A DNA stretch of 64,000 bases from Alphaproteobacteria bacterium. GTDB lineage: Bacteria > Pseudomonadota > Alphaproteobacteria > Caulobacterales > Aquidulcibacteraceae. The notes beneath the pieces were generated by a model. The model was given only the letters and a program-made list of their open reading frames with translations, did not search any database and was not told the origin of the DNA. Where the stretch lies: positions 1 through 64,000 of the forward strand of contig JAGWZE010000016.1 in the NCBI GenBank assembly GCA_018969015.1, written 5' to 3'. How positions within the stretch are numbered: the stretch's first letter is position 1; each line of letters starts with the position of its first letter. Positions 26,070-34,086 of the stretch are shown here, in pieces. A program made the translations under genes and the position numbers.

Positions 26070-26168
26070 GCGTCATCCTCGACGCGCCGCAGGCGCGGCG
26101 GGGATCCAGCCGGGCGCCCCTGTGGTCCCTGGATCCCCATCACGCCTTCGGCGCGATGAGGATGACGG
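26070..26168. repeat. intergenic palindromic repeat, family C copy 2
   Basis: Outer arms CGTCATCCTCG and GAGGATGACG enclose inner arms GGGGATCCAG and CTGGATCCCC, with small GC hairpins (CGCCGCAGGCGCGGCG; CGCCTTCGGCG). It is the complete form of the partial element at 23476-23552. It lies between the DUF6624 gene and the convergent receptor terminator. Confidence 0.8.
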
Positions 26169-26186
26169 AGCGCCTTGGAGCCCGAA

Positions 26187-26217
26187 CGAAAAAGGAGCGG
26201 CGCTTGCGCGCCGCTCC
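26187..26217 (-). terminator. intrinsic terminator of TonB-dependent receptor 1
   Basis: A perfect 10-bp stem GGAGCGGCGC / GCGCCGCTCC (26194-26203 with 26208-26217) is followed, on the minus strand, by five T residues. The same stem sequence ends receptor 2 at 29741-29769, evidence that the terminator was duplicated with the gene. Confidence 0.85.
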
Positions 26218-26240
26218 CTCAAGTCGTCCAGCGGAGGAGA

Positions 26241-29200
26241 TCAGGAACCCGCGCCGAACTTCTTTTTGAGGCCGATCTTGAACGTGCGGCCGAGCGGGTT
26301 GCCCGTGAACGGGTCGTAGCTCAGGTCGAGACGCGCGAACGCCGGATCCTGGTCGGTGAAGTTCTCCACCGAGAACAGGAGCGTCGCGTTGCCCGGAAGA
26401 TCGGCGCGATAGGTCAGATCGTGCGTGAACTGACGATCGATCGTCTTCCCGGCGGTGATGGCCTGCGCCGTCGGCGTGGTCGGGTCGGCGCTGTTGCTCG
26501 TCGTTGAGGCGAACGGCGCGGTGCGCTGGTCGGTGTAATCGTCGACGAAGTTCAGGCCGTAGCGCAGCGAGTGGCGGCCGTGCTCGTACACGGCCGAAAC
26601 CGTGCCCTTGTACTTCGGCAGCGGGTACTGCGAGAGACCGGCGTTCAGCTTGTTCGTCGCGTCGAACGCGTTCTGCACGCGCACGCCCGCCACGGTGAAG
26701 TCGCCCACGGCGTATTTGAGCGTGTAGGTCGCGTCGACGCCGAGCGTCAGGTCGCCGCCCGCCACGTCATTGAACGTGTAGTTGCCCGAGAGGTCGATAC
26801 CGGACGTTTTCGTGTCCGGACCGTTGGTGACCTGCGTGCGGATCCGCGACACGCCGCCCGGCACGCAGCCCAGCGAGCTGAACGTGAACCGCGCCTGCAG
26901 GGCCGCAAAGGCGGGATCGCCGCAGCGCGCCGTCGAGGTCCCGCCCGGGAACATCGTGTTGGCGATGGCCTCGGTCGGTTCGGCGACGATCTGGTCCGTG
27001 AAGTTGAACTGCCAGAGGTCGATCGTGCCGCGGAAACCGCCGGCTTTCACGATGGCGCCGAGATTGTACGTGTCGGCCTTTTCCGGCTTGATCGTCGGGT
27101 TGCCGAAGATGTCGATCGCGCGGAAGGCGCCGAGCACGAAGTTGAAGGCCGTGACGCTGCCCGGCTGCGTGTTGGAGAGCGACGGGCCGCGGAACGTCGA
27201 GCCGGCGGAGCCGCGCAGCGCGAGCCAATCGGTCGCCTGCCAGCGCACCGAGACCTTGGGATTGAACGTGGAGCCCGTGGCGCCGCCGTAGTCTTCGTAG
27301 CGGGCCGCGACCACCGCGTTGAACGCCTCCGTGAACGGAAGATTCACTTCGGCGAACACGCCGTGCACGTCGCGCGACAGATCGGCCGGGAAGCCGCCGC
27401 CGAGGAAGATGTTGGCGCCCGTGACGGCCGTGCAGTTCGTGACGTTGTAGTCCGGCGTGGCGACGCACGGCGTCACCGTCAGGTTCGAGATGTCGTTGTA
27501 CTTCGTCTTGAACCCGGAGGTGCGCAGCTGTCCGCCGGCGGCCCACCCGATCTTGCCGCCCGGCAGTTCCCAGAAGGGCAGTTCGCCGTTGAGCACAGCG
27601 TCGACCGTGAGCAGGTCCGACGTCTGATCGGTGCGCTGGTAGGCGTACATCCAGCGCAGGATCTCGGTGTTCTGGGCCGTCGCCGAATTGTACTGCGGGT
27701 TGGAGACGCCGGTAATCTTGTTGGTGTCGATCCGCGTGGAGAAGGGGTTCCACCACAAGCAGCCGTTGGCGCCGGCCGTCGTGCCCGTGCAGTTCGCGCC
27801 ACCGAAGCCAAGCAGCGCGCGCTGGAAGCGGTTGACGAGGACGTCGTATCCGGTGCGGACGCCCTTGTCCTCCATGTAGGTGACGTTGATGTCGTAGCCG
27901 ATGTTCTCGGTGATCTCGCCCTTCACGCCGCCGGAGACGCGGTAGGCTTCCCACGTGCGCTTGCCTTCGGACGCGAAGTTGTTTTCCGGGAAGAGCGGGT
28001 TGCCGCCCCAGCCGAGCGGACGGTGCAGCGGCAGCAGCACGAACTGCGTGTTGCTCGGGAAGACGCCCGGGTTCTTGGCGATGAAGTCCTGGTAGAACGG
28101 GTTGGTCGCGGGCGTGATGTACTGGCCCGGGATGCCGCCCGCCTGCGCCGTCGGCGTCTGCAGGGTGATGTAGGCCGGCGAGGTCAGCCAGTCCGGCGTC
28201 GCCGTGTTCGCGTAGAGCACTTCGGCGTGGAACTTGTGCTTCGGCGCGATGTCGAAATCGACGCTCGAGAAGACCTGATAGCGGTCTTCGTTTTCGACGA
28301 GATTGTCGAACCGCACGAAGTTGAAATAGCAGGCCGGCGTCGCGCCGGTGAAGCCGGCGAACCCGCCGACCGCGGCGCATTGCGGATCGCGCACGATGCG
28401 CGGCGCGGCCGAGGGCGCGCCCGCCGCGTTGAGGAAGGCGATGCCGGTGCTGGTGAAGATGCCCGGGATGTAGGAGCTCGGGTTGCCGAAGGACGACCAG
28501 CCGCCCTGCGGGTTCTCGAGATAGGGGCGCGTCGCCCAGTCACGCTCGAGCGAACTCAGCTGCGATTTGTGCTGGAAGCCGACGGAGAAGAAGATGTTCG
28601 CGCGATCGGTGGAGTAGCCCGCGTTCATCGACGCGGTCCAGTTGCCGTCAGAGCCGTCGATCGACTTGTAGTCGCCGCCGACTTCCAGGCCGTCGAAGTT
28701 CGTCTTCGTGATGAAGTTGACGACGCCCGCCACGGCGTCGGAGCCGTAGGTCGCGGCCGCGCCGTCCTTCAGCACTTCGATCCGCGCGATCGCCGCGCTC
28801 GGGATCTTGTTGGTGTCGACGGTGGAGCCGACGAGGCCGAACGGGTTGAGCGCCATGCGGCGACCGTTCAGGAGCACCAGCGTCCGTTCCGGGCCGAGGC
28901 CGCGCAGGTTGATCGTGCCCGAGCCTTCCGCGCCCTGGGCGCGGCTGTCGAACTGGTTGGTGTCGCCCTGGACGCCCGACGAGACGCTGAGAAGCTTGAT
29001 GAGTTCGACGGTCGTCGGCGAGCCCTGCTTTTCGAGGTCCTCGGCGGACAGCACGTTCACCGGCAGCGCGGCGTCTTCGGGCGTGCCGCGGATGTAGGAG
29101 CCGGTGACGACGATTTCTTCTGTCGAAGCCCGCGTGCCGGATTGCGGCGCAGACGGCGTTTGAGCCTGGGCGGGGAGCGCGCCGAAGCCGAGCGCGAACG

Positions 29201-29246
29201 CCGCGGCAAGGGCCGACCCTCCACTGAACAGCGAAGTCTTCGACAT
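26241..29246 (-). CDS. TonB-dependent outer membrane receptor 1
   Basis: 1001 residues. Signal peptide 1-29 (ALPAQAQ). A TonB-box-like EEIVVTGSYI at about 43-52 opens the plug domain, with LRGLGPERTLVLLNGRRMA and IEVLKDGAAATYGSDAVAGVVNF, the usual plug signatures. The 22-strand barrel follows and ends in LGRTFKIGLKKKFG. Large extracellular loops carry Cys pairs (CTGTTAGANGC). It takes up a large or scarce nutrient using TonB energy; ligand unknown. GGGAGG lies six bases before ATG 29246. It is clearly paralogous to receptor 2 along the N terminus, plug and loops. It is preceded by a remnant of the mrp 3' end. Confidence 0.93.
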   Translation of the reverse strand: MSKTSLFSGGSALAAAFALGFGALPAQAQTPSAPQSGTRASTEEIVVTGSYIRGTPEDAALPVNVLSAEDLEKQGSPTTVELIKLLSVSSGVQGDTNQFDSRAQGAEGSGTINLRGLGPERTLVLLNGRRMALNPFGLVGSTVDTNKIPSAAIARIEVLKDGAAATYGSDAVAGVVNFITKTNFDGLEVGGDYKSIDGSDGNWTASMNAGYSTDRANIFFSVGFQHKSQLSSLERDWATRPYLENPQGGWSSFGNPSSYIPGIFTSTGIAFLNAAGAPSAAPRIVRDPQCAAVGGFAGFTGATPACYFNFVRFDNLVENEDRYQVFSSVDFDIAPKHKFHAEVLYANTATPDWLTSPAYITLQTPTAQAGGIPGQYITPATNPFYQDFIAKNPGVFPSNTQFVLLPLHRPLGWGGNPLFPENNFASEGKRTWEAYRVSGGVKGEITENIGYDINVTYMEDKGVRTGYDVLVNRFQRALLGFGGANCTGTTAGANGCLWWNPFSTRIDTNKITGVSNPQYNSATAQNTEILRWMYAYQRTDQTSDLLTVDAVLNGELPFWELPGGKIGWAAGGQLRTSGFKTKYNDISNLTVTPCVATPDYNVTNCTAVTGANIFLGGGFPADLSRDVHGVFAEVNLPFTEAFNAVVAARYEDYGGATGSTFNPKVSVRWQATDWLALRGSAGSTFRGPSLSNTQPGSVTAFNFVLGAFRAIDIFGNPTIKPEKADTYNLGAIVKAGGFRGTIDLWQFNFTDQIVAEPTEAIANTMFPGGTSTARCGDPAFAALQARFTFSSLGCVPGGVSRIRTQVTNGPDTKTSGIDLSGNYTFNDVAGGDLTLGVDATYTLKYAVGDFTVAGVRVQNAFDATNKLNAGLSQYPLPKYKGTVSAVYEHGRHSLRYGLNFVDDYTDQRTAPFASTTSNSADPTTPTAQAITAGKTIDRQFTHDLTYRADLPGNATLLFSVENFTDQDPAFARLDLSYDPFTGNPLGRTFKIGLKKKFGAGS

Positions 29247-29305
29247 CAGATTCCTCCCGAGCGGCCCCGGTTGTTTCGAGGGGTCCGCAGGGGAAGTTAA
29301 GACCA

Positions 29306-29353
29306 GTCAACTTGTCTGTTGAAGACAGTCGATTGCAGTTCTTACAAGTTGAC
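29306..29353. promoter_or_regulatory. long-spaced inverted repeat upstream of receptor 1
   Basis: GTCAACTTGT (29306-29315) and its exact inverse ACAAGTTGAC (29344-29353) are 28 bp apart, with a small CTGT-tgaag-ACAG dyad between. The location 60-107 bp before the receptor start fits a repressor or activator site. It has no counterpart upstream of receptor 2, although the bases immediately before both start codons are homologous. Confidence 0.45.
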
Positions 29354-29449
29354 ATACGCGTCACGATCTCGCCGCAATTTTCGCAGTGCGGTAAGCGATT
29401 ATGCCGGAACCATTTTGGGCGAGCGAGGGTCACCGAACGGCGCGGGATC

Positions 29450-29640
29450 CTCCGAAAATCGGAGGCTGACTGTGGCGCCATTGACACGATTCAGCTGGTC
29501 CAACGCAGCCGAAGCGATGTCGAGCAGCACGCGGGGCGCGGGGGAGGTCGAGCCCGACGCAACCTGAGGTCGGGATACGCCGCGGCATTGTTGCGGCGCA
29601 GCATTCTTGGCGGCGCGCCGCGCAAACCGTGCCGCCCGGC
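29450..29640 (-). pseudogene. degenerate remnant of the 3' end of mrp
   Basis: On the minus strand one frame encodes PAPRVLLDIASAALDQL, then ATVSLRFSED. This mirrors the C terminus of the intact Mrp protein in this window (PASRVLFDIASAALAGL, then TTVTIRFSDD). At DNA level 29450-29573 aligns with 32889-33013 at roughly three bases in four, including the shared TCCGAAAATCGG. Weaker similarity continues to about 29640. The original stop codon is lost and the frame runs on to 29399. The remnant lies the same distance (about 200 bp) from receptor 1 as intact mrp does from receptor 2. The rest of the 29247-29740 gap holds no gene. Confidence 0.75.
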
Positions 29641-29740
29641 GGCCCGTGCAACGGCACGATCGCTTCGTGGACTGCGCTTTCAGACGGGCTGCGCGGGGCG
29701 AGCGTCGCGCCATGCGGCGTTGGCGCGCCGCGGGCCAAAC

Positions 29741-29769
29741 GAAAAGGAGCGGCGCGTGCGCGCCGCTCC
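29741..29769 (-). terminator. intrinsic terminator of TonB-dependent receptor 2
   Basis: Stem GGAGCGGCGC / GCGCCGCTCC (29746-29755 with 29760-29769), then four T residues on the minus strand. The arms are identical to those of the receptor 1 terminator and only one loop base differs. Confidence 0.85.
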
Positions 29770-29791
29770 AAGACCACGATGGGCCGAGGCG

Positions 29792-32689
29792 TCAGGAGCC
29801 CAGGCCGAACTTCTTCGAGACGCCGATCTTGAACGTCCGGCCAAACGCGCGATGCGTGTAGACGTCGAAGTTCGTGTCGAAGCGCGCATACGGGGCGCCT
29901 TCGTCGAAAAGGTCGATGACCGACGCCGTTATCCTGAGGTCGCCGTCGCCCTTGAAGCGGTAGTGGATGTCGTTCTGCAGATTGGCGGCGATGGTTTTGC
30001 CCCTTGGGTTGACCGGGGCGGACAGGAAAATGTTCCCGGCCGTCGCGGACGGCAGACGCGCCCTCTCGTCCTCATAGTCGGTGATGTACCGCGCCACCCA
30101 GCGCAGGTTGTGAGGGCCGCGTGCGATTTCGACGAACGCGTTGGCCTTCCACTGCGGCAACGGGCGAATGTAGGTGGCCGTCCGGTTGAACCGACCGACC
30201 GCGTCGAAGGGCGCCGCGACCTGGACGCCATCGATGACGAGCGCGCCGACCTTGTATTCGATCGTATAGCTGCCGTCCGCGCCGAACGTCAGTTCCGCAC
30301 CGCCAAACGCGTCAGGAATGGTGTATTCGGCCGATGCATCGACGCCGCTGGTTTTGATCTTCGGGCCATTGATGATGTTCACGCGGATGCGCTCGAACGT
30401 TGCAGGCGTCGGTGGCGAGGCTGAAAACGTGACGCGCGACGCGAAGGGCGACGTCGTCGGCGCTGCGAGAACGTTCGCGAGCAGCGGATTGAAGGGCTCG
30501 ACGATGATCGGATCCTTGAAATCGAAGCTCCAATAATCGATCGACCCTTTGAAGCCGCCTCGCTCGATGACCGTCCCGGCATTGAACGTGGTCGCGGATT
30601 CCGGGTTGAGTTTCGGATTGCCAAACGTGTCGATCGCCTTGAATGCGCTGGCCGGCGCAACGAAGGCGAGCGTCGTGAACTGACCGCCGAGCTGGTTCAG
30701 CGATGGGCCGCGGAAGGTCGTTCCGGCGGAACCGCGGAACACGACGCCCTTCAACGGCTCATACCGCACCGCGAGTTTGGGATCCGTCGTGGAGCCGGTG
30801 CTTCCGCCATAGTCCTCATGTCGCACAGCAAGCTGCGCGTCGAGATTGTCCGAGAACGGAAGTCTGAACTCGGCAAACGCGCCCCAGACGTCACGATCGA
30901 CATCCACCGGGTTCGTCGGGCCGAGAAAGCCGAACACGCCCGTCTGTGACGCGCACGACTTGTCGCCCGGGACGGGGCAGGGGTTCTTCGTGAAGTCCGC
31001 GTTGTCGTTCGGATCCAGCTCGTAGGCGTCGATCCGGTACTGCGCGCCCGCTGCGAAGGCGATCGGCCCGCCGCCGAGTTTGATCGGCGTCTCACCGTTC
31101 ACCACCGCGTCGATCACCGTCAGGCGCGTCGTCGCTTCGGTGGCCGAAGCGCCGACCAGCCACTTCGCGAGCGCGGGCGAATTGGCCGTCGACGGGACGT
31201 AGCCGGGGTTCGGCGTGTCGCTGAATGCGCCCTGCTTAATCCCCGACGAGAACGGATTGTAGTACTCACAGCCATTTTCGCCGGGCGTCGTTCCCGTGCA
31301 GTTCGGACCGCCGAGGCCGTTGAGGGCTTTGTTGAACCGGTCGACGAACGTGTCGTTCGTCGATCGATTGCCGACATCGACCATGTGCGTCACCGCGACG
31401 TCCCACCCGACGCCGTTGGCGAACTCGCCTTTCAGCCCGCCCGATACGCGCCAGGCTTCATAGTCTCGGCTGCCGACCTGAGCGCCGCCGGTTCCGGGAA
31501 AGCCGCTCCATCCGAATGAACGGCCCGACCAGAGAACCGCGGACGCCGTGCCGAGCCAGGGATTGGCGGCAAGGAGCGATGGATTTTGCGCAAGCAAGGC
31601 CTGGAAACCCGGATGCGACGTCGGCACGACCACGGTCGGCCGCTGCGGCGGGTAGGACGGCGACGTCTTCCACTTCGGGACGTCGGTGTTTGCGTACAGG
31701 ACCTCCGCGTGGCCCTCGACGCCGCTTCCGAAGCGGTGGTTGAGTTCGGAAAAGACCTGGTACCGCGTTTCTTCCTCGACGAGGTTGTCGAAGGGAATGA
31801 AGCGGAACTGGCACGCGCCGTTGGCGACCGTGCCTCCGACGGCCGCGCACCCTGGATCAACGACGTTCAGCGTGCCCCGGGGGGAATTACCAACCGGCGT
31901 GGCGTTCAAGATCCGCCCCGGATTGCCGATCGCGGAGTAGCCGGATTGAGGGTTTCCGGCGAATGACACGTCGGCCACGTCGACGTCGGAGAAGCTCGTC
32001 TCCGATCGGAAGCTGTATCCGAAGGTCGTGACCCAGCTCGTCGCTTGCCCCTGCCATCCATACGCCAGGGACGCATTCGACTCGCCTTCGGAGCCGTCGA
32101 ACTTCTCGAAGTCGCCGCTGACGGCCAGTCCGTCGAGGCGCTTGTTCGTGATGAAGTTCACGACACCGGCGATGGCGTCCGATCCGTACAGTGCGGCGGC
32201 GCCGTCCTTGAGGATTTCGACACGCCCGATCGCCGCCGCGGGGATCAGGTTCGTGTCCACGAACGTCTGCGCGCTTTCCGCGATGCCATAGGGCGCCGAC
32301 GCCATGCGGCGCCCGTTCAACAGGACGAGCGTTCGCGCCGGGCCAAGACCGCGCAGGTTGATGTTGCCGAGGCCTTCGAGCCCGTTCGAAGAGAACTGGT
32401 TGGTTTCGCCATCCGTGCCGCTGGAGACCCCCAGGGTCTTGACCAGCTCCGTGATCGTCGGCGTGCCGACCTTCTCGAGATCCGCGGACGTCAGCACGTC
32501 GACCGGCAGCGCGGCGTTTTCCGGCGTGCCGCGGATGTAGGAGCCTGTGACGACGATTTCGTCCGTTGTCGATTTGCCGCTGGACTGAGGCGCATCTGGC
32601 GTCTGGGCGTCCGCGGGCAACGGGGTGAATCCAAACGCGATCGTGGCGGCAAGCGCGGACACTCCGCGCAGCAGCGAAGTATTCGACAT
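29792..32689 (-). CDS. TonB-dependent outer membrane receptor 2
   Basis: 965 residues from ATG 32689, chosen because GGGAGG is six bases upstream; the ATG at 32695 would abut the ribosome site. Signal peptide to about residue 28 (ADAQ). TonB-box-like DEIVVTGSYI, plug motifs LRGLGPARTLVLLNGRRMA and VEILKDGAAALYGSDAIAGVVNF, barrel end FGRTFKIGVSKKFG. It shares with receptor 1 the string GSYIRGTPE(D/N)AALPV, the CTGTT(A/P)G(A/E)NGC loop and the terminator. The barrel loops differ in length and charge, so ligand choice may have diverged. Upstream lies intact mrp on the same strand. Confidence 0.93.
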   Translation of the reverse strand: MSNTSLLRGVSALAATIAFGFTPLPADAQTPDAPQSSGKSTTDEIVVTGSYIRGTPENAALPVDVLTSADLEKVGTPTITELVKTLGVSSGTDGETNQFSSNGLEGLGNINLRGLGPARTLVLLNGRRMASAPYGIAESAQTFVDTNLIPAAAIGRVEILKDGAAALYGSDAIAGVVNFITNKRLDGLAVSGDFEKFDGSEGESNASLAYGWQGQATSWVTTFGYSFRSETSFSDVDVADVSFAGNPQSGYSAIGNPGRILNATPVGNSPRGTLNVVDPGCAAVGGTVANGACQFRFIPFDNLVEEETRYQVFSELNHRFGSGVEGHAEVLYANTDVPKWKTSPSYPPQRPTVVVPTSHPGFQALLAQNPSLLAANPWLGTASAVLWSGRSFGWSGFPGTGGAQVGSRDYEAWRVSGGLKGEFANGVGWDVAVTHMVDVGNRSTNDTFVDRFNKALNGLGGPNCTGTTPGENGCEYYNPFSSGIKQGAFSDTPNPGYVPSTANSPALAKWLVGASATEATTRLTVIDAVVNGETPIKLGGGPIAFAAGAQYRIDAYELDPNDNADFTKNPCPVPGDKSCASQTGVFGFLGPTNPVDVDRDVWGAFAEFRLPFSDNLDAQLAVRHEDYGGSTGSTTDPKLAVRYEPLKGVVFRGSAGTTFRGPSLNQLGGQFTTLAFVAPASAFKAIDTFGNPKLNPESATTFNAGTVIERGGFKGSIDYWSFDFKDPIIVEPFNPLLANVLAAPTTSPFASRVTFSASPPTPATFERIRVNIINGPKIKTSGVDASAEYTIPDAFGGAELTFGADGSYTIEYKVGALVIDGVQVAAPFDAVGRFNRTATYIRPLPQWKANAFVEIARGPHNLRWVARYITDYEDERARLPSATAGNIFLSAPVNPRGKTIAANLQNDIHYRFKGDGDLRITASVIDLFDEGAPYARFDTNFDVYTHRAFGRTFKIGVSKKFGLGS

Positions 32690-32790
32690 ATTCATCCTCC
32701 CGCTCGGCCGTTTTGTTTTGGTGGGCCGGCAGGATAAATTAGGACGCCGCGGCGTTTCTCTTGAAGGCGCTTAGGGTAAGTCTTTCGTGA

Positions 32791-32806
32791 TTGACGCAGA
32801 CGTCAA
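32791..32806. promoter_or_regulatory. perfect dyad TTGACG-N4-CGTCAA upstream of receptor 2
   Basis: A 6+4+6 perfect inverted repeat lies about 100 bp before the receptor start. One arm (TTGACG on the minus strand) could also serve as a -35 element, though no convincing -10 hexamer is seen 17 bases on. A second dyad, TGAAC-ac-GTTCA, is at 32847-32858, and a CACAAA/TTTGTG hairpin at 32858-32875 may weakly end the mrp transcript. Confidence 0.35.
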
Positions 32807-32883
32807 GATTTCAACGGGGGCGTGTCCCTTCATAAACGGCTGAAATTGAACACGTTCACAAATGTGGGTTTGTGACCGTCCGG

Positions 32884-34086
32884 TCAGTCGTCCGAAAATC
32901 GGATCGTCACTGTGGTTTCCGGGCCACGCTCGAGGCCGGCCAGCGCAGCAGAAGCGATGTCGAACAGCACGCGGGACGCGGGGTGGTCGGGGGCTGACGC
33001 AACCAGAGGGTGGCCCGCGTCGCCGCTTTGCCGCAGTGCAATGTCGATCGGAAGCGCGCCGAGGAAGGGGACGCCGGCCTGCTCGGCGGTGCGCCGGGCG
33101 CCGCCTTCGCCGAACAGTGCGAGCCGCGTCCCGTCGGGTTGGTCCAGCCAGGCCATGTTCTCGACCACGCCGAGGATCGGCACGTGGGTGCGGGCGAACA
33201 TCTGCAGGCCGCGGCGGACGTCGGCGAGGGCCACTTCCTGTGGCGTCGAGACGATGATGGCTCCGTCGAGCGGGATGCGCTGGGCGAGCGTCAGGTGCAC
33301 GTCCCCGGTGCCGGGCGGCAGGTCGAGGACGAGAATGTCGAGCGGCGCCCAGGCCACGTCGTCGAGCATCTGGCGCACCGCCGACGTCGCCATGGGGCCC
33401 CGCCAGATCATCGGCGCGTCGACGTCGACGATGTACCCGATCGACATCGAGCGCACACCGAAAGCGTTGAGGGGAATGAGGTTTCCGTCTTCTCCGGTCT
33501 CGGGCTTCGCGGTCGCGAGGCCAAGCAGCGTCGGCGTCGAGGGGCCATAGACGTCGAGATCCAATAGCCCCGTGCGCAGGCCGAGCGCCGCGAACGCGCA
33601 CGCCAGATTGACCGCCACGGTCGACTTGCCGACGCCGCCTTTGGCGCTCGAGACCGCGATGATGCGGGCGACGCCGGGCACGCCTTCGGGACGTCGGCTC
33701 TGCGCCGGGGCAGAGGCCGGCGGCGCGGCGCCTTCGCCCTTGCGCAGGCGGGTCGCCCCTGCGGGCGGCGCGGCGTGCGGAGAGGGGGGCGGCGCGGCGG
33801 GCGAGGCGGCAGCCGGACGCGGCGCATCATGGGCCGTCAGGACGGCCGTCACGCCGGTCACGCCGAATTGAGAGGCCGCGGCCCGCTCGGCCGCATCGCG
33901 CACCGGCACGTAGGCCGCGGCGAGGGCCGCCGGCGCCTCCAGGGCAAAGCTCACACGGCCTTTCGCGTCCTTGGCCAAGCCCTTGATGCGGCCCGCGGAG
34001 ACCAGTCCGAGGCCGGTTTCGGGGTCTTTGACCGCCTCTAGCGCGGTCGTGATCGCAGCCAAGGCATCCGCCAACCCGTTGTTCAT
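32884..34086 (-). CDS. mrp: Mrp/ApbC/NBP35-family iron-sulfur cluster carrier ATPase
   Basis: 400 residues from ATG 34086. An N-terminal MIP18/DUF59-like domain (about 5-85) is followed by a Pro/Ala-rich linker (about 88-135) and the deviant Walker A P-loop ATPase (SSAKGGVGKSTVAVNL). Further signatures are GLLDLDVYGPSTPTLLG, MIWRGPM and LDLPPGTGDVHLTL. Mrp proteins hold and hand over Fe-S clusters. The usual ENMSYFxCPHCG segment reads ENMAWLDQPDGTR here, so the CxxC pair is absent, as in some other alphaproteobacterial members. It is divergent from hflK with 59 bp between starts. Confidence 0.93.
   Translation of the reverse strand: MNNGLADALAAITTALEAVKDPETGLGLVSAGRIKGLAKDAKGRVSFALEAPAALAAAYVPVRDAAERAAASQFGVTGVTAVLTAHDAPRPAAASPAAPPPSPHAAPPAGATRLRKGEGAAPPASAPAQSRRPEGVPGVARIIAVSSAKGGVGKSTVAVNLACAFAALGLRTGLLDLDVYGPSTPTLLGLATAKPETGEDGNLIPLNAFGVRSMSIGYIVDVDAPMIWRGPMATSAVRQMLDDVAWAPLDILVLDLPPGTGDVHLTLAQRIPLDGAIIVSTPQEVALADVRRGLQMFARTHVPILGVVENMAWLDQPDGTRLALFGEGGARRTAEQAGVPFLGALPIDIALRQSGDAGHPLVASAPDHPASRVLFDIASAALAGLERGPETTVTIRFSDD

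Follow-up and report, generated by a model that had tools for sequence, protein, structure and literature searches.

Organization of the mrp-receptor locus

The window analyzed here is a 64,000-nucleotide stretch of a genome from the Aquidulcibacteraceae (Alphaproteobacteria bacterium, assembly GCA_018969015.1, contig JAGWZE010000016.1), and it holds two tandem genes for TonB-dependent receptors, referred to as receptors A and B, downstream of an mrp/apbC gene. The features described lie on the minus strand, from 34083 down to 26186, and the analysis covers one genome of the genus. The intact mrp gene (32884..34083), which codes for an Fe-S carrier P-loop NTPase, comes first and is the source of the duplicated 3' end discussed below. 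Its product carries the P-loop NTPase and FeS_assembly_P domains that mark Mrp/ApbC proteins (Pfam ParA/NUBPL, 9.1e-90; FeS_assembly_P, 1.1e-11), and it matches the ApbC equivalog model of NCBIfam below the cut-off (287.2 vs 348). A leader of 188 bp (32696..32883) separates the mrp stop codon from the start codon of receptor B (29792..32695; 967 residues, or 965 from the second ATG), and the coordinates given by an earlier note on this DNA were right. Receptor B is followed by a terminator stem-loop and a T run (29746..29769), a decayed copy of the mrp 3' end (29447..29569, with a protein-level match reaching 29629), a second leader of 200 bp (29247..29446), receptor A (26241..29246; 1,001 residues), and a terminator stem-loop with the same stem as that of B (26194..26217).

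Both receptors scored above the Pfam cut-offs for Plug and TonB_dep_Rec_b-barrel (Plug, 4.7e-20 for B and 1.9e-19 for A; barrel, 3.3e-29 and 6e-32, respectively), and in both, the motif EIVVTG, which we take to be the TonB box, can be read after the signal peptide. Neither could be assigned to a substrate-named subfamily, as all 21 NCBIfam matches of A and all 22 of B fell under their cut-offs. In a search of PDB sequences with B, the only receptor used for it, 18 entries matched, with the alignment confined to B residues 43-243.

A duplicated frame surrounds both receptors

The earlier note had proposed that a block comprising the mrp end, a receptor, and a terminator was duplicated in tandem, and it had predicted a block-wide diagonal with DNA similarity outside the plug motifs. 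Both were observed. A single blastn alignment joins 26190-29646 to 29742-33085 at 61.7% DNA identity and, because the receptors alone could produce such a diagonal, we compared the non-receptor segments separately with 300 dinucleotide shuffles. Homology was found in (i) the mrp tail (29447-29569 vs 32887-33009), with 95/121 identical positions (78.5%, z 19.9); (ii) the proximal 100 bp of the leaders, with 63/87 identical (72%, z 8.2); and (iii) the terminator regions, with 47/56 identical (84%, z 8.8). The whole leaders gave a z of 4.7, but the distal part taken alone was not significant (z -0.6). The same was true of the DNA upstream of 29570 compared with mrp upstream of 33010 (z 0.6), and of the DNA beyond the two terminators (z -1.0). 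The leaders of A and B found no match at E 0.01 in nine other receptor loci of the own genome, nor at E 0.001 in the receptor loci of relatives, which rules out a leader likeness general to receptors; the first 80 codons of A and B do match own-genome receptors, at 61-69%.

The 24-base stem pattern of the terminators occurs at two sites in the genome, both at this locus, so that a common genome-wide terminator can be dismissed as a trivial cause of the shared stem. A simple terminator scan listed the stem of B and not that of A. The stem, GGAGCGGCG-CGCCGCTCC, also stands 3' of B-type receptors at three loci of relatives (L069, L071, and L073/G164; in G164, directly after the receptor), and it is absent from that position at L070 and L072.

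The mrp-like fragment 200 bp upstream of A, which the note had read as a second, decayed 3' end, was recovered when the whole genome was searched with the Mrp protein (E 1.6e-5, 29447-29629, no internal stops); it extends over about 120 bp by DNA and 61 residues by protein. When aligned with mrp tails, it scored 100 against the own gene (24/41 identities), and the best of the tails of 38 relatives reached 52 (14 identities). The own mrp end scores far above all of the others among these 39 tails, which places the copying event in this lineage or in one very close to it. The sites at which the fragment departs from mrp show no preference for codon position 1, 2, or 3 (8/8/10, of 41/41/39 sites), as would be expected for decay without coding constraint and as the note had supposed, and the frame of the fragment has no Pfam or NCBIfam match; selection on the fragment need not be invoked. 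An ancestral linkage of mrp to such receptors can likewise be set aside, since no A/B-type receptor was detected at E 1e-5 at the mrp loci of 29 relatives, with 427-1509 bases downstream covered, and since mrp and the A/B-type receptor lie on different contigs in 11 genomes (draft assemblies).

Other features border this frame. The leader of A contains a perfect 10-bp inverted repeat, GTCAACTTGT/ACAAGTTGAC, with its arms 28 bp apart (29306-29315 and 29344-29353), which is a possible operator; the leader of B has other, imperfect inverted repeats, and the perfect repeat of A was not reported there. Downstream of the terminator of A lies a palindromic intergenic repeat (26070-26180) that, from reading the sequence only, resembles a dispersed repeat. 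An SPFH/Band 7 protein (Pfam Band_7) is encoded divergently from mrp, and by its position we presume the gene to be hflK.

The receptor bodies belong to different clades

Relatives of the receptors were sought in 60 genomes of the family and 398 genomes of the order. The best relatives of A are receptors of genus g6 of its own family (57% identity), the closest of the A type among the 398 order genomes, and a class-wide search for nearer ones (385 genomes, E 1e-295) returned a single match besides the own genome, at 52%. The best relatives of B are the receptors of the three genomes G164, G136, and G247 of g25 (77-78% identity) and that of G006 of its own family (63%), and the identity between A and B is 48%. 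A tree of the receptor bodies was built with 85 rows and 856 columns, from at most 30 loci per search with identical proteins entered once, leaving out two own-locus copies and one fragment. In this tree, A grouped with g6 (f1; support 98, starred) inside a large A clade, and B stood beside Phenylobacterium copies, with G006 outside them (support 100, starred). Forcing A and B together, with 29 hand-chosen rows of the 85, cost 400.7 log-likelihood units (P value of the approximately unbiased test [p-AU], 3.5e-41).

Outside their ends, the two receptor bodies thus belong to two old and different clades. This contradicts the part of the earlier note that had seen a single duplicated receptor with diverged barrel loops, as the body tree leads us to reject barrel divergence after a plain duplication. 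The sister placement that the note had anticipated was not recovered for the bodies, which group with different families, the very outcome it had named as refuting it; the N-terminal ~75 codons do pair A with B, although weakly. Moreover, the own mrp is 52-54% identical to those of G164, G136, and G247 and, because the identity of B to the receptors of the same three genomes is far higher, the body of B has probably been exchanged between families.

Mosaic affinities of the two receptors

In a codon alignment, residues 1-20, 21-40, and 41-60 of B are 77, 60, and 88% identical in DNA to A, compared with 49, 40, and 73% to the receptor of G164. From residue 81 onward, B is 71-88% identical to the G164 receptor in all segments except 181-200 (65%), and 47-80% identical to A, which is nearer in that one segment only. 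At sites separating A from G164, B is A-like by 43:10 over residues 1-60, in contrast to 249:727 over residues 81-955. The reciprocal comparison, with A as the child and the g6 receptor as its reference, showed B-like sites to prevail at both ends of A, by 74:24 in residues 1-80 and by 16:3 in the final 16 residues. Parts of these genes therefore have clearly different affinities, as in a mosaic gene, with the caveat that the p-values of the prefix test are by themselves unspecific. That test was run on 140 triplets, comprising 7 window triplets and 133 controls, and because permutation p-values were low in some controls too, we relied on effect size: the prefix statistic ranged from 26 to 52 for the window triplets and did not exceed 24 for any control.

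The longest stretches over which A and B match exactly, 23 and 16 bp just past the TonB box and 15 bp in the last strand, lie in the junction regions. The 23-bp match occupies 32523..32545 in B and 29080..29102 in A, and the junction itself would fall somewhere in codons ~55-80 (prefix maxima at residues 62-79). The 15-bp match, which encodes TFKIG, occupies 29822..29836 in B and 26271..26285 in A. These matches flank the putatively exchanged body, but they are conserved family motifs too, and so are supportive only.

Ends and bodies are also recombined in Phenylobacterium arrays

Comparable arrays occur at loci L069-L073, from Phenylobacterium and a Caulobacteraceae metagenome-assembled genome, where the order of receptor bodies varies (X-B-Y in L069, X-Y-B in L070). 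The leader of Y in L070 is 84% identical to the B leaders of L071/L073 and 62% to the leader of Y in L069, whereas its body is 41% identical to B of L071/L073 and 84% to Y of L069. Downstream, B of L070/L072 shares the stretch of Y in L070 (88-90%), and B of L069/L071/L073 share a different one (97-98%). Within the coding sequence, residues 1-25 of B in L069 are Y-like by 11:4 (p 0.0002, a p-value that is equally unspecific). No Y-like suffix was seen at the 3' coding end of B in either L070 or L072 (p 0.2), so that the switch there lies at or past the stop codon. Judging from these comparisons, ends and bodies have been recombined in the Phenylobacterium arrays too. A C-terminal fragment of a Y-type receptor lies between B and Y in L069 (13011-13200), and this stray tail would be a sign of unequal exchange. 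A search for mrp at E 1e-3 did not find a piece of it in L069-L073.

Such a pattern is not universal. Among 15 same-contig receptor pairs, the window included, the leaders gave a z above 4 in 7, two of which are plain duplicates with bodies 76-81% alike, and the three receptors of G128 (L171) showed no leader z above 4. The signal peptides gave a z above 4 in 14 of the 15 pairs, so that this measure does not discriminate. One tandem pair, from a K189A clade bacterium (L081:1049-7457), has very similar leaders (z 13.9), its bodies agree at 81% over the part covered, and it is a plain tandem duplicate.

Origin of the locus

We propose that the block was duplicated and that the receptor body of one copy was then replaced by the body of an old paralogue. 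We assign this a probability of about 0.6, a value that takes account of the narrow gap over the controls and of a reversed stem as frequent as the stem. It is preferred because duplication by itself accounts for the frame and fails for the bodies, while a history of the bodies alone leaves the mrp fragment, the leader, and the terminator unexplained. The duplicated block of the earlier note would thus be kept for the frame and for the fragment of the own mrp, but not for the receptor bodies. In this lineage, a tandem duplication would have taken in the last ~120 bp of mrp, the leader, the receptor gene, and the terminator. Either afterward or as part of the same event, one body would have been replaced through homologous recombination, between a point just past the TonB box and the last beta-strand, by that of an old paralogue, while the leader, signal peptide, TonB-box region, final codons, and terminator of the block were kept; the surplus mrp end would then have decayed neutrally. 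The outcome would be two receptors, probably of different specificity, with similar upstream regions and common N-terminal segments for export and coupling. We infer the order of these events, the recombination mechanism, the difference in substrates, and any benefit to the cell from the patterns described above.

The direction of the exchange is marked in two ways. The same stem after B-type receptors in Phenylobacterium hints that it was a B frame that received an A body, and the lower GC content at third codon positions of B (82.5, vs 91.6 for A) hints at the reverse. The Phenylobacterium copies may themselves derive from the lineage of the window, with the terminator of the frame carried along.

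Several observations weigh against our proposal. The two direction markers conflict, and genus g1 is represented by the own genome alone among the 60 family genomes. The stem matched 4 of 200 order genomes, the own included, and a reversed control pattern matched 6 of 200; isolated matches are at chance level, and only a position beside a receptor counts. In the prefix test, a p-value of 0.01 or less together with a breakpoint within residues 1-120 was also obtained for 27 of the 133 controls, and only effect size sets the window pair apart, narrowly (26 vs 24). The fraction of other-clade-like sites in the first 60 residues was 0.70-0.83 in the window triplets, with a control maximum of 0.77 and median of 0.45, and 2/133 controls reached 0.70. 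Some high controls are Phenylobacterium copies with 5' ends resembling another g25 receptor, and these would be the same phenomenon as the window pair; others (A itself tested with other parents of the B clade, and B of G007 tested with A) are not explained by the Phenylobacterium pattern, and B of G007 has an A-like 5' end too (30:9). The N-terminal tree (71 columns, 29 rows) made A and B nearest neighbors with weak support (64/92, unstarred), and placing B with its own clade was only borderline rejected (p-AU 0.0509). The share of identical codons among identical residues, 66% between A and B over residues 1-70 compared with 56% in the body, did not differ significantly (p 0.21), and the 3' coding end of B was not significantly A-like when compared with Phenylobacterium parents (p 0.16-1.0).

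The common ends on unrelated bodies could also have arisen if A and B were already neighbors with ends of their own, and the upstream stretch (the mrp end, the leader, and the first ~70 codons) of one, along with its terminator, was later transferred to the other by gene conversion. Ends that seem to have been exchanged in the Phenylobacterium arrays lend this some weight, but the conversion tract would have to continue beyond the receptor into mrp, for which the acceptor offered no homologous sequence, and the terminator would require another tract of its own, whereas one block duplication covers both ends; we regard this course of events as unlikely. Less probable still is an origin by recombination between congeners, in which an incoming segment with the mrp end and B would have entered at the mrp 3' end upstream of A and taken the place of the native mrp end. 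This would give bodies of different clades plus an extra mrp end, and it fits a fragment of the same lineage and the lower third-position GC of B, but it presupposes a recipient in which A, with the same leader and terminator, already stood behind mrp, which amounts to an earlier body exchange between congeners. A simple tandem duplication of the whole block, with barrels diverging in place and no exchange, fits the block-wide diagonal, the mrp fragment, and the same terminator, but is very improbable given the placement of the bodies in different clades, the cost of making them sisters, and the far greater likeness of B to the three g25 receptors than to A.

Comparison with known systems and implications

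RagA of Porphyromonas gingivalis, a TonB-dependent receptor, occurs in four types, and variable surface proteins including RagAB have been discussed with allelic exchange and gene conversion (PMC5266723); its N-terminal part, which includes the signal peptide and precedes the TonB box, has been described as highly conserved (PMC11817032). The likeness is an exchange of types together with a conserved N terminus in a TonB-dependent receptor. The RagA types, however, are alleles at one locus among strains, whereas here two paralogous bodies adjoin in one genome and the duplicated frame includes a piece of a neighboring gene. FpvA, the pyoverdine receptor of Pseudomonas aeruginosa, is an outer-membrane receptor whose gene has alternative types; the population recombines, and the types are spread across its clonal complexes (PMC2777410). 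Its types differ from our case in that each matches a pyoverdine, and a tandem frame, a neighbor-gene fragment, and breakpoints are not described in the passages of PMC2777410 covered here.

A further parallel, L069-L073, involves the same receptor superfamily and, between strains, 41%-identity bodies behind 84%-identity leaders and the same body before different terminators; it differs by the lack of a detected mrp piece and by a receptor order that varies between strains. Tandem gene families in general undergo unequal crossing-over and gene conversion. The window pair resembles them in its duplicated block with a truncated piece of a neighboring gene and in exchange at conserved patches, and the mechanism is nothing new; what is notable is where the junctions lie, one near the TonB box and one near the last strand. 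In the open-access library searched, covered mostly through titles and abstracts, we found no account, for Caulobacterales, of receptor bodies being exchanged between paralogues at the TonB box, or of paralogue-body exchange inside a duplicated frame.

The block homology invites the view that A and B are plain duplicates, and the earlier note had offered the pair as a dated internal yardstick for receptor specialization. The bodies are far older than the block and, because their divergence predates its duplication, the pair cannot serve as such a yardstick. A tentative generalization is that Caulobacterales receptor bodies are exchangeable cassettes, with whole specificities swapped between the TonB box/plug start and the last barrel strand. 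The frames (leader, signal peptide, TonB box, and terminator) might then be lineage-specific, so that import changes while expression and TonB coupling are kept, and the window pair and the Phenylobacterium arrays could conceivably be two outcomes of one process. Were this true, receptor specificity would change by whole-body exchange at fixed junctions, and trees built from whole receptor genes would confound the history of the ends with that of the bodies.

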